This document shows, one piece after another, positions 51,902-56,700 of a stretch of 64,000 bases of DNA. The first letter of the stretch is position 1. Each line of letters opens with the position of its first letter. The translations under genes were made by a program, and so were the position numbers. The notes under the pieces were generated by a model. It was not told the origin of the DNA. It made no database searches and saw only the letters and a program-made list of their open reading frames with translations. The stretch is from Frigoriflavimonas asaccharolytica (GTDB lineage: Bacteria > Bacteroidota > Bacteroidia > Flavobacteriales > Weeksellaceae), in the NCBI RefSeq assembly GCF_013294015.1, contig NZ_JABSNO010000006.1:1-64000 (forward strand), given 5' to 3'.

Positions 51902-52465
51902 ATGATAGAAGGTAACGAATACTCTTTTGATCTTTTTCAAATCTTTTTCGGTGATTTTAATCTAACGGTATATCTGGAAATTCTAATCCGAGTAATAATA
52001 ATTATGGCTTATACCATATTGATTATTAGATGGATAGGAAAGAGAGCAGTTGGTGGTTTGGGAAGTGCAGATATTTTATTAATCATTGCAATGGGAAGTG
52101 CGGTAGGAGATGCAATGCTCTATCCTACAATTCCGCTTTTGATACCCATTTCTGTGATATCTTTAATTGCAATTTTTCAGAAAATATATGTGTACATCGG
52201 CATAAAACATGAATCTGTAAGAAAAATTACACATCCCACGGTTTTGAAATTAGTTGAAAACGGTAAACTTTTGAAACAAAATTTCACCATAGATGAAATT
52301 GATGAAAATGAAGTGTATATGCTTTTAAGAGAAGCTGGTATTCAATATCTCTCCGAAGTTGAGCACGCTTATTACGAACAATCTGGCCAGTTGAGCGTTT
52401 TTAAATATGAAAATCCAATATTTAAAAATTCTATTCTTCCAGAAAATTTAAAGCATGAGAAATAA
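51902..52465 (+). CDS. DUF421 (YetF-like) membrane protein
   Basis: The 187-residue protein has three membrane helices (RVIIIMAYTILIIRWIGKRA, LLIIAMGSAVGDAML, LLIPISVISLIAIFQKIYVY) and a C-terminal soluble domain (TIDEIDENEVYMLLREAGI). This is the DUF421/YetF architecture of unknown function. The umuD-like gene follows after 8 bases, so it is co-transcribed with the umuDC pair. Confidence 0.82.
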   Translation: MIEGNEYSFDLFQIFFGDFNLTVYLEILIRVIIIMAYTILIIRWIGKRAVGGLGSADILLIIAMGSAVGDAMLYPTIPLLIPISVISLIAIFQKIYVYIGIKHESVRKITHPTVLKLVENGKLLKQNFTIDEIDENEVYMLLREAGIQYLSEVEHAYYEQSGQLSVFKYENPIFKNSILPENLKHEK

Positions 52466-52473
52466 TTAAAATA

Positions 52474-52839
52474 ATGGAAGAATCTGATGCTCAAAAAATA
52501 AAAAAACCAGAGGAGAATCATCGTGTTGCAAAATCTACGCAAACGGGATTTTCTAGTCCGGCCACACATTACAACGAACCAAGAATAGATCTCAATTCTG
52601 TACTCATTTCTAATTCTGAATCCACATTTTTTATCCGTGTGATAGATGATGCTTCGGAAAAATATGGTATCTCAAAAAATGATGTGCTGATTGTTGATAA
52701 ATCTCTTAGCCCGAAGAGAAATCAAATGGCAATCATCATCGAAGATGGAGAATTTCAAATACAAAAATTTCATAAAAAATTGACGGAAGAAATTAAGATT
52801 TGGGGCGTTATCACCTACATTATAAAATCTGTACTATGA
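52474..52839 (+). CDS. UmuD-like protein with both catalytic residues replaced
   Basis: The 121-residue protein aligns with E. coli UmuD position by position in its first 100 residues (GFSSPATHYNEPRIDLN, then FFIRV...GISKNDVLIVDKS and DGEFQIQKF). At the catalytic serine position (60) there is Ala, and at the catalytic lysine position (97) there is Gln. The cleavage dipeptide Cys24-Gly25 is Thr-Gly. A stretch of about 18 residues near the C-terminus is missing relative to E. coli. It should not self-cleave, yet it overlaps umuC by ATGA and is preserved in frame. S61 adjacent to A60 could conceivably substitute; that is unlikely. Confidence 0.85.
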   Translation: MEESDAQKIKKPEENHRVAKSTQTGFSSPATHYNEPRIDLNSVLISNSESTFFIRVIDDASEKYGISKNDVLIVDKSLSPKRNQMAIIIEDGEFQIQKFHKKLTEEIKIWGVITYIIKSVL

Positions 52840-54110
52840 TAGCTTTGGTAGATTGCAATAGTTTTTATGCATCTTGTGAACAAGTTTTTCGTCCAGATTT
52901 GCAAAATAAACCCGTCATAGTTTTGAGTAATAACGATGGTTGCGCAATTGCGGCAAACAAACATGCAAAAGCGCTTACAGAAATTCCTATGTTTCAGCCA
53001 ATTTTTAAAATAAAAAACTTGTTGGATGAAAACAATGTATCCTATTTTTCTTCCAATTATACTTTGTATAGCGATATGTCTAGACGAGTGATGAATACTT
53101 TGAGAGCATTTTCGCCATTGGTAGAGGAATATAGTATAGACGAAAGCTTTGTAGATTTATCTCATTCCACAGATTTGGATTTTCAAAATTTGGGCAGTAT
53201 TATAAAAAAAACGGTAGAAAAAAATACAGGAATTCCTGTTGGAGTTGGTATTGCGAAAACGAAATCTTTATCCAAATTAGCTAATAAATTTGCTAAAAAA
53301 ATTCCAGAAAATAATGATGTTTATGTAGTAGATACAGAAGAAAAAAGGCGAAATCTTCTAATAAACTTGAAAGTAAAAGATATTTGGGGAATTGGAAAAA
53401 AGCATACAGAAAGACTACAGAAAATCAATATAATTACTGCATTAGATTTTGCAGAAATGCCATTAGATTGGGTTCGAAAAGAAATGACCATCATTGGCGA
53501 AAGACTTTGGCGAGAATTAAATAATGAAATTTGCTTAGAATTAAATCCAATTCCAGACGCAAAACAAGGCATAGGAACGGCAAAATCTTTTGGAAAAAAA
53601 TTGACAGATTACACTTTGATAGAAGAAGCCTGCAGTTTTTACGTCTCCGAGGTTGCAGATTTGCTTCGTCAACAAAAAAGTGCCGCTACAGAAATTGAAG
53701 TTTTTCTGCAAACCAACCAATTTAGCCAATCGGATCCGCAGTATAAGAATAAAATTATTGTGAAATTATACTCACCCACGAATAGTACAATTTCTTTAAC
53801 AAAGGCCGCCTTGAAAGGTTTGAGAGAAATTTATTTACCCGGATATCGCTATAAAAAAGTAGGCGTAAATCTCACACATTTTGTTCCAGAAAATGAAATA
53901 CAAGCGAGTTTATTTGATGAAAAAACCAAGATTGAAAGTGAAGAAATAACCAAAGTGATGGATATTCTCAACAATAAATTTGGAAAAAACAAAGTGAAAC
54001 TAGCCGTAGTTGGAACTCGAGAAAAAGAATGGTCTTTGATTAAAGAACATCGCAGTCCAAGATTTACTACGCAATGGGACGAATTATTGACCATCGGAAA
54101 AGCAGAATAG
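52836..54110 (+). CDS. umuC: Y-family DNA polymerase, UmuC-like
   Basis: The 424-residue translesion polymerase begins MIALVDCNSFYASCEQVFRP with the first catalytic Asp, and contains SIDESFVDL with the catalytic DE pair. The little-finger region and C-terminal tail (GTREKEWSLIKEHRSPRFTT) match UmuC rather than DinB. The longest frame starts at 52800, but the ATG at 52836 overlaps the umuD stop (ATGA) and is the right start. It bypasses DNA lesions. Confidence 0.9.
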   Translation: MIALVDCNSFYASCEQVFRPDLQNKPVIVLSNNDGCAIAANKHAKALTEIPMFQPIFKIKNLLDENNVSYFSSNYTLYSDMSRRVMNTLRAFSPLVEEYSIDESFVDLSHSTDLDFQNLGSIIKKTVEKNTGIPVGVGIAKTKSLSKLANKFAKKIPENNDVYVVDTEEKRRNLLINLKVKDIWGIGKKHTERLQKINIITALDFAEMPLDWVRKEMTIIGERLWRELNNEICLELNPIPDAKQGIGTAKSFGKKLTDYTLIEEACSFYVSEVADLLRQQKSAATEIEVFLQTNQFSQSDPQYKNKIIVKLYSPTNSTISLTKAALKGLREIYLPGYRYKKVGVNLTHFVPENEIQASLFDEKTKIESEEITKVMDILNNKFGKNKVKLAVVGTREKEWSLIKEHRSPRFTTQWDELLTIGKAE

Positions 54111-54149: not shown

Positions 54150-54215
54150 TACACCTAATTAATTAGGTATATTCGGTTTTTATAGTATCTTTGTATCACT
54201 AAATAATTAGGTGTA
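54150..54215 (+). promoter_or_regulatory. BlaI-type operator and promoter of the blaI/blaR-like operon
   Basis: A near-perfect 22-base palindrome (54150-54171) with core ACCTAATTAATTAGGT (54153-54168) lies just upstream of the -7 box TATCTTTG (54186-54193). An exact 12-base half-site TAATTAGGTGTA (54204-54215) overlaps the start codon. Two copies flanking the promoter indicate autorepression by the BlaI-like product. Confidence 0.75.
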
Positions 54216-54580
54216 TGAAAATTCCTTCCTTAACAAAAGCAGAAGAACAAGTGATGCAATATCTTTGGACGCTAGAAAAAGCCTTTCTCAAGGATATTCT
54301 AGAGCTTTTTCCAGAGCCAAAACCGCACACGAATACCGTTTCTACCACTTTAAAATTTTTGAAAGACAAAAAAATTGTCGATTTCAAAATTTTTGGACGG
54401 CAACACGAATATTTTCCCTTGATACCAAAGGAAAAGTACAGCGGAAAAACGATGAAAAATTTGGTAAAAGATTATTTTGAAGGATCTTACAAAGAAGCGG
54501 TTTCTTATTTAATACAAAAAGAAGAACTTTCTGTAGAAGATTTAGAATTACTGCTCAACGAATTTAAAAACAACGACTAA
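54215..54580 (+). CDS. BlaI/MecI/CopY-family transcriptional repressor
   Basis: The 121-residue winged-helix protein begins LTKAEEQVMQYLWTLEKAFL and contains TNTVSTTLKFLKDKKIVDF, the DNA-recognition helix, plus the dimerising C-terminus. It should repress its own operon through the palindrome just upstream. It is followed with one-base overlap by a membrane M56 protease, the usual antirepressor partner. No beta-lactamase lies nearby, so the inducer may not be a beta-lactam. Confidence 0.88.
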   Translation: MKIPSLTKAEEQVMQYLWTLEKAFLKDILELFPEPKPHTNTVSTTLKFLKDKKIVDFKIFGRQHEYFPLIPKEKYSGKTMKNLVKDYFEGSYKEAVSYLIQKEELSVEDLELLLNEFKNND

Positions 54581-56700
54581 TGGAAACACTATTACTATAT
54601 TTTCTGAAAATGATCGTATTTTCTAGTTTGATGTTTGTGTATTATTTTGTGTTTTTAAAGGATAAAACTTTTCACCATTACAACAGATTTTATTTGCTAT
54701 CGATAATTTTTATAAGCATTTTATTGCCTTTGATAAAAGTAGAATACTTCACGATAGAAGTGAATCCAGATGTTTATTTGTTGCTAGAAAATATGCAAAT
54801 CATTAAATCTGATGCAGAAAGTAATTTTCAATTTTCACCCTATTTTCTAGTTGGTAGTTTACTATTTTTGGGCTCAATATTTTATTTAATTAAATTATCT
54901 ATAGGATTATACAAGATTCATCGCCTACAATTTAATTATGAAAAAGAAACATTCCAAGGCATTAATTTTTATCAAACAAAATTAGAAGATGCACCATTTT
55001 CATTTTTAAAAAATCTCTTCTGGAAAGATTCCATTGCAATCAATTCTACCTATGGAAAGCAAATCTTGAAACACGAAATGGTGCACATCGAGCAAAATCA
55101 TACGTTGGATAAATTATTAATTTCTACAGTAACCGCAATATTTTGGTTCAACCCGATATTTCATTTATTAAAAAGAGAAATTTCTCTCTTGCACGAATAT
55201 TTGGCAGACAAAAAAACGGTGCAAAAAAACGACGTGAAAGCTTTTGCACAAATGCTTTTAAGCAGCCATTTCGCGGAAACTAATTTGCCAGCAACCAGTC
55301 AATTCTTAAATTCTAACCTCAAAAAAAGATTAATCATGCTTAAAAAATCACACACAAAATTCAGTTATGCCCGCAAAATTTTAGCTCTACCATTGGTATT
55401 TATTTTAGGTTTCGCATTTTTGGTAAATGCTAAAAACAGAGAAATTTCTAAAACAAATGTTGAAATTGCAAAAGCGGTTTTTCAGATTAAGAATGATACT
55501 ATTAAAAATCCGTACAAAAGAAATAATATAGACACTTTTAGTTTTAAAAATAAAATAGCAGAATCATCAGAAACAGAAGTTTTCACAATTGATAATAAAG
55601 TTGTTTCCAAACAAGAATACAAAGATTTTTATTTGAAAAATATTGGGAACGAAAATTTTAAATATTTTTTAAATGAAATTACGGATTTAAATCCTAAAAG
55701 AGTTTTTGGAGCTTCATTAGTTGAAAAAAGCGGATATGAAATTTCTGAGAACAAAATAAAATTTAATGAAAAAACAACAGATAACGGTAGAGAAGGGCTT
55801 GTTGCATCATCTCACTCACAAGGAATAAATTCTTATTATTCAAAAAATGTAAACAATTCAACAGAAAAAGATCAATTCTATTTTAATTACAAAAAAATTT
55901 CAAGAAAAGATTTTTTAAAATTAGTGAATGAGGATTTAGGAAAATCTACCAATTACTTTGGTTATATTGAAAGTGTAAATAATAATAAGATTTTCAGCGC
56001 AAAAAGTGACATGAATTTGCAATTACCTGATGAATTTATAAATGCATTAGATAAAAAGTATTCTTTTCAAACTCAAAAATATACATCAACTGCAACTAAT
56101 TCAATAGCCAATTCTCAATCAAAGAATAATAGTAAAACTGGTAATGCAAAAAATGCTAAAGAATCAGATATATTTATTATAGATGAAGTAAAGAAAACGA
56201 AAATTGAATATTTAAATATGCTCGCTGAAATTGAGAATAAAGATCAATTAAAATTCATTTTTAAAACCGATAAAACTGAAAATGATGTGAAAATCTACGG
56301 TGTTTGGACTAAAGGTTTTGCGAAAATTAAAAATTACTCAGCGACATCTACATTTGTTGAAGATGATTATGACAAGCAGTATGATGCAGATGCGGCTAAA
56401 GTAATAGAAATTCAAGAAAATTTAAAAAAGAAATTAGGAAAAAAAGTAGTGTTAGAAAATGTAGCAATTGAAAGAAAATTTCCTGATGGTTCAAATTATA
56501 AAATAGAAGTAAAAGGGGACAAAGTAACTATGGATCCTACTTTATCCAATAAGTACGATAAAATCTACATCAATGGAAAACTTTCTACACAAGCAGATTT
56601 AGATAAAATTGATAAAAATAAAATCACATCTCAAAAAATCAAAAAAAATAACGATAACGGAGAAATTAACAATGAAATAAAAATTCGAACAAAAAAATAG
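54580..56700 (+). CDS. M56-family membrane metalloprotease (BlaR1-like)
   Basis: The 706-residue protein has about four membrane helices; the zinc motif HEMVHIEQNH at 165-174 faces the cytoplasm. Further zinc residues lie in LLHEYLADKKT. A fourth helix (ILALPLVFILGFAFLV, about 265-285) leads to a long periplasmic region of about 420 residues, Lys/Asn-rich. This region is not a penicillin-binding domain as in true BlaR1. It should sense an unknown signal and cleave the BlaI-like repressor. A terminator follows. Confidence 0.85.
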   Translation: METLLLYFLKMIVFSSLMFVYYFVFLKDKTFHHYNRFYLLSIIFISILLPLIKVEYFTIEVNPDVYLLLENMQIIKSDAESNFQFSPYFLVGSLLFLGSIFYLIKLSIGLYKIHRLQFNYEKETFQGINFYQTKLEDAPFSFLKNLFWKDSIAINSTYGKQILKHEMVHIEQNHTLDKLLISTVTAIFWFNPIFHLLKREISLLHEYLADKKTVQKNDVKAFAQMLLSSHFAETNLPATSQFLNSNLKKRLIMLKKSHTKFSYARKILALPLVFILGFAFLVNAKNREISKTNVEIAKAVFQIKNDTIKNPYKRNNIDTFSFKNKIAESSETEVFTIDNKVVSKQEYKDFYLKNIGNENFKYFLNEITDLNPKRVFGASLVEKSGYEISENKIKFNEKTTDNGREGLVASSHSQGINSYYSKNVNNSTEKDQFYFNYKKISRKDFLKLVNEDLGKSTNYFGYIESVNNNKIFSAKSDMNLQLPDEFINALDKKYSFQTQKYTSTATNSIANSQSKNNSKTGNAKNAKESDIFIIDEVKKTKIEYLNMLAEIENKDQLKFIFKTDKTENDVKIYGVWTKGFAKIKNYSATSTFVEDDYDKQYDADAAKVIEIQENLKKKLGKKVVLENVAIERKFPDGSNYKIEVKGDKVTMDPTLSNKYDKIYINGKLSTQADLDKIDKNKITSQKIKKNNDNGEINNEIKIRTKK

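Follow-up and report, generated by a model that had tools for sequence, protein, structure and literature searches.

How can a Pol V be activated when its small subunit has lost the means to cut itself? This question is raised by a short umuD gene, directly followed by umuC, in the 64,000-nucleotide stretch of DNA that was analysed as a whole (hereafter the window; Table 1). In the textbook account, Pol V is activated by the RecA-stimulated cutting of UmuD, and the finding is of fairly high interest since this step is missing from a broad and conserved set of Pol V operons. No description of a naturally dyad-less UmuD was found in a literature search that left most subscription papers out of reach.

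Table 1. Features of the umuDC region, in positions of the window
Feature	Positions	Strand	Evidence
Gene for a DUF421/YetF-like membrane protein (8 bp before umuD)	51902..52465	+	PF04239, E 1.1e-13
Short UmuD homologue without catalytic dyad, 121 aa (A60, Q97, T24-G25, hairpin 106-123 deleted)	52474..52839	+	ORF, profile matches, alignment, model
N-terminal extension, residues 1-23, ahead of T24-G25	52474..52542	+	Alignment of relatives
UmuD arm segment, starting at T24-G25	52543..52596	+	Alignment; PMC11791011
umuC, 424 aa, start in ATGA overlap with umuD	52836..54110	+	ORF, profile matches, alignment

The window protein matched the Pfam profile Peptidase_S24 (E 1.3e-9) and the Pol V UmuD model NF007621 (E 3.4e-24), its 85 bits lying below the curated cut-off of 110. 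An initial annotation had claimed a gapless alignment with E. coli UmuD over the first 100 residues; with phmmer (against 8gmt) this held for residues 22-105, but residues 1-21 displayed no significant similarity. The other losses that it had described were all recovered in this comparison: the catalytic Ser60 and Lys97 are Ala and Gln, the Cys24-Gly25 cleavage site reads Thr-Gly (i.e. no Ala/Cys-Gly bond is left), and 18 residues are absent near the C-terminus (E. coli 106-123), residues 106-119 pairing with E. coli 124-137. The structural model was confident in its core only (mean pLDDT 63.6, residues 1-47 mostly below 50); UmuD' was its best match, and the core superposed on it (1umu) with a Z of 9.4 and 2.2 A over 70 residues. 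This is the only UmuD of the genome. By fold, arm and operon the window protein is a UmuD; by its chemistry, as read from the sequence, it is no S24 peptidase.

With the window UmuC as query, 15 close loci were found in named genomes (Halpernia, Kaistella, Cellulophaga, Maribacter, Algibacter, Lacinutrix, Pricia and Zobellia), every one with a short UmuD upstream. Two Desulfovibrio-type loci from the same scan displayed the ordinary UmuD form. A search profile built from 18 short UmuDs was matched at E <= 1.2e-40 in 38 of 397 Flavobacteriaceae genomes; a gap in the scores followed, ordinary UmuDs of about 150 aa starting at 1.3e-28 in this family. Short UmuDs also occurred in three of the 246 sampled Weeksellaceae genomes, and the phylum sample outside these two families contained no match better than 4.6e-28. 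The short clade, as used below, is composed of 53 distinct short UmuDs from Flavobacteriaceae, Halpernia and Kaistella. One genome (G898) carries two of these dyad-less (hereafter dead) umuDC loci (L085 and L139), one per subclade by score and tail. An origin from mobile elements was considered and rejected: the closest phage and plasmid proteins were less than 60% identical, and five plasmid copies that were read (one from a Bacteroidota plasmid) all keep the dyad.

None of the 53 short UmuDs combines Ser60 with Lys97, the few with Lys97 being without Ser and vice versa. The hairpin is absent from every one of them, and P1 is always Thr or Ser. The initial annotation had asked whether S60A/K97Q is fixed in a clade; this was rejected, as both columns drift (A/E/G/S/T/L/D/K/N at position 60, I/V/L/Q/K/A/M/E/N/R/H at position 97); the constant feature is that the Ser60-Lys97 pair is missing. 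Such variety gives both positions the look of relaxed sites. Ser61, named earlier as a candidate for the active-site position, lies at a site that is not conserved (Ala in Kaistella; Phe, Trp or Tyr in most relatives), and the loss of the dyad stands. Both catalytic regions were also looser than in dyad-bearing UmuDs (entropy 2.48 versus 1.58 for the Ser loop, 1.76 versus 0.61 for the Lys strand). The arm was more conserved in dead than in dyad-bearing UmuDs (0.56 versus 1.17 bits), and among 18 representatives Q23-T24-G25-F26, S28, A30-T31-H32-Y33, E35, D39, L40 and W110-G111 were invariant.

A clear selective constraint was observed on both genes. Between close pairs, dN/dS of dead umuD was mostly 0.04-0.17 (one noisy pair reached 0.40) and that of umuC 0.00-0.13. 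The window UmuC is intact, as had been proposed together with the ATGA overlap: it keeps D6, D101 and E102 (E. coli numbering), the clamp motif, the RecA-NT motif and the C-terminal tail. The three catalytic residues were found in 50/50 partners of short UmuDs, and the motifs and tail in the representative partners inspected. Given the low dN/dS and the intact UmuC active-site residues, dead umuD is not decaying. umuC follows short umuD in all 53 loci, with a 4-bp ATGA overlap in 43; the two genes stand apart at a single locus (L051 of G501), where a YefM/YoeB-type toxin-antitoxin pair (PF02604, PF06769; positions 1874-2430) lies between them. In a quick tree, all 50 UmuC partners formed one clade (SH-aLRT 100), inside which Halpernia and Kaistella were nested among Flavobacteriaceae; this nesting suggests horizontal transfer.

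The DUF421 gene reported upstream of umuD is indeed there and is, in Halpernia, probably the first gene of the umuDC operon. It adjoins umuD in two Halpernia genomes only and was not found beside it in Kaistella or in the Flavobacteriaceae loci examined. Because of this narrow occurrence the neighbour is probably incidental, and the earlier hint that it bears on Pol V regulation was abandoned. Directly after umuC, the window displays a BlaI/MecI-type repressor gene (PF03965) and then one for an M56 BlaR1-like membrane peptidase (54215-56700).

The segment preceding the arm distinguishes the short family further. With about 23 residues and the motif IKKxxxNHRVxxxTQ, it has about the length of the segment that E. 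coli UmuD cuts off. It is basic in the short family and hydrophobic in E. coli: its fraction of F, W, L, I, V and M was 0.19 against 0.37 in ordinary UmuDs, and its net charge +2.8 against -0.8. The hydrophobic docking residues are lost from it, as in the UmuD 3A mutant (T14A L17A F18A), whose full-length non-cleavable arms are undocked from the core and which is considered a mimic of UmuD' (PMC5342242). UmuD 3A is a laboratory mutant that has its active site, whereas the short family represents an old, natural state in which the active site itself has gone.

Several known systems may be compared. With E. coli UmuD/UmuD' (NF007621, S24) the window protein shares the fold, the arm sequence, the umuC operon and the similar extension length ahead of the cleavage site, and in both systems the partner UmuC has a RecA-NT motif and a tail that binds UmuD; the differences lie in the dyad, the Thr-Gly site, the missing 18-residue hairpin and the basic segment described above. 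HumD of phage P1 and relatives (NF051876) is likewise a UmuD-like subunit, made in a UmuD'-like form for which no cutting is needed. Unlike HumD, the window UmuD has lost the dyad and does not begin at the UmuD' end, 23 residues preceding T24-G25, and its score with the HumD model (60.4 bits) is below the cut-off of 120. In Bacillus, YqjX/YolD is a small partner of the Pol Y YqjW that is not known to be cut and whose N-terminal arm is inserted in models (PMC12926913, PMC6511836); it is a different family by sequence, and the window UmuD displayed no YolD match in Pfam. The S24 SOS repressors of Bacteroidetes (PMC8565304) have the S24 fold in common with it, yet they carry an HTH domain and the dyad, of which the window UmuD has neither.

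The operators of these repressors, GGA-N5-TCC and CTAA-N5-TTAG (PMC8565304), precede most dead umuDC operons. Of the 53 dead umuD genes, 40 have GGA-N5-TCC in the 300 bp upstream, against an expectation of 2.1. In one subclade (28/30) it was usually paired, at about -43 and -24, over a TAnnTTTG element at -12; in subclade B about 12 bp separate the TAnnTTTG element from the start codon that follows. CTAA-N5-TTAG was found within 150 bp of all ten operons of another dyad-less group (f18, see below), 0.1 being expected in 29. The repressor itself keeps its dyad in all 11 dead-UmuD genomes checked (AAAG-YP, GDSM, VKK/IKK), so that RecA-triggered S24 cleavage is apparently preserved there and lost in UmuD. 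Near the window's own operon GGA-N5-TCC was not found; a divergent palindrome may still be present there. The initial idea of a Pol V regulated in some other way thus agrees with the SOS operators of most relatives but has no recognised operator behind it in the window, where SOS control of the Halpernia operon would be an extrapolation from relatives.

Some further observations concern these regions. The window UmuD is not the only S24-like protein of its genome: on contig 27 (L216, positions 1477-2241), divergent from a Y-family polymerase, an HTH-S24 SOS-regulator homologue was found that PF00717 misses and that matches the Kaistella regulator used as query. Its Ser and Lys are kept, and it reads AQMG-Y where other repressors read AAAG-Y. 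An inverse link between SOS box and dyad was rejected, since the cleavable UmuDs of G534 and G796 also have boxes. Between SOS box and dead umuD, a conserved ORF of about 90-100 aa (MSKTVFRNYDI...) without Pfam match was observed in L006 (about 2351-2623) and at the same place in L007, L008, L011-L013, L016 and L052; in Maribacter-type loci the GGA-N5-TCC box overlaps its start codon.

We consider it likely that in this Pol V (UmuD2C) the small subunit has given up self-cleavage and serves uncut in a UmuD'-like state, RecA control being exerted on transcription. This proposal builds on what the sequences document, namely loss of the cutting machinery, conservation of what is left, the operon and, in relatives, the operators and an intact repressor. 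The window UmuD has neither nucleophile nor general base left, and the Ala/Cys-Gly bond and the hairpin next to the Lys strand are gone as well. The arm, which in the E. coli enzyme is inserted next to the active site of UmuC (PMC11791011), would be presented without cutting: the segment before it has kept its roughly 23 residues but is basic where ordinary UmuDs have a hydrophobic stretch that docks on the core, and a basic, less hydrophobic segment should stay undocked, as in UmuD 3A. By this analogy, dead UmuD may be regarded as a natural, permanently arms-free subunit, which would activate UmuC uncut and whose basic extension may contact UmuC or DNA. In most relatives, RecA would act through the dyad-keeping S24 repressor, the GGA-N5-TCC and CTAA-N5-TTAG sequences being predicted to work as operators.

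The explanation leans on the altered N-terminal extension because non-cleavable S60A forms of E. coli UmuD, the arms of which are otherwise normal, give little mutagenesis (PMC5342242). The same forms would also suit an uncut UmuD2C acting as a permanent checkpoint or inhibitor that slows replication or holds UmuC off, translesion synthesis not being its job, and full-length UmuD does bind the Pol III alpha subunit and disrupt the alpha-clamp contact (PMC5342242). Such a role appears unlikely, as a checkpoint would not require the three UmuC catalytic residues maintained in every partner at low dN/dS, and the hydrophobic segment that docks has been lost. The "always inhibited" Pol V of the initial annotation is unlikely as well, considering that UmuC also keeps its clamp motif, RecA-NT motif and UmuD-binding tail. 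Alternatively, dead UmuD might still be processed to the UmuD' form, either by a different protease or in trans by an S24 protein such as a cleavable UmuD. In E. coli, a partner that has an active site is able to cleave UmuD S60A in trans (PMC5342242), and some genomes with a dead UmuD also have a cleavable one. Yet P1 is Thr or Ser and not Ala or Cys, most genomes checked have no cleavable UmuD, and the extension is conserved within subclades, which would be odd for a discarded piece; we regard such processing as quite improbable.

The coexistence of both kinds of UmuD in G317, G501, G534, G646, G827, G733 and G796 might also indicate a heterodimer. Where a cleavable UmuD is present the dead one might act as its partner, but that dead UmuD is mainly a modifier of the cleavable form, and not the subunit of a Pol V of its own, seems very doubtful: it is alone in most genomes examined (the window's included) and always comes with its own umuC, such UmuCs forming their own clade. 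Least credible is a pseudogene in decay that only its translational coupling to umuC maintains. The lost catalytic residues and the deletion would fit it, but it is already contradicted by the selection data (dN/dS mostly 0.04-0.17) and hardly agrees with an invariant arm and C-terminal strand, with one old clade spanning two families, or with the absence of internal stops among the dead loci listed.

Retaining the explanation of an uncut, UmuD'-like subunit, its extent may be considered at the level of the phylum. Two further dyad-less groups occurred in other Bacteroidota families; their UmuDs are longer and keep the hairpin but also display Thr-Gly. In f18 (10/10 read) the site is NATGFG or DATGFG, with A (once S) at position 60 and R at position 97, and in f38 (19/19 read) mostly ETGF, with A/G/D/E/S at 60 and R or C at 97. 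A relationship between dyad and P1 was observed in a set of 166 UmuDs: the dyad was always accompanied by Ala or Cys at P1 (84 sequences, one being truncated there), and its absence by Thr or Ser in 81 of 82. In a UmuD of f62 (L178) the cleavage site is Ala-Gly, and Arg occupies the two catalytic positions. The three dyad-less groups may go back to one loss or to several: holding them as one clade was not rejected (AU p 0.736 and 0.645), and the UmuD tree, which rests on few columns, needs four changes. It is possible, and we put it forward tentatively, that self-cleavage was lost once, early in Bacteroidota, together with a change of P1 from Ala/Cys to Thr. The outcome would be a Pol V, shared across the lineage, that works with its small subunit uncut, the new basic extension of this subunit reaching into polymerase or DNA, and post-translational activation by RecA would then be a dispensable layer of Pol V control.

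In current annotation, many Bacteroidota proteins probably carry the label "autoproteolytic subunit" wrongly. A large natural set of Pol V operons without cutting, most of them behind SOS operators and with the polymerase under strong selection, asks which control layers mutagenic repair needs, and the same set offers a probe of the role of the UmuD arm once cutting is gone. Since self-cutting is lost in a UmuD that is strongly conserved beside its polymerase, the many Bacteroidota with a dead UmuD probably control Pol V mainly through the transcription of its genes.
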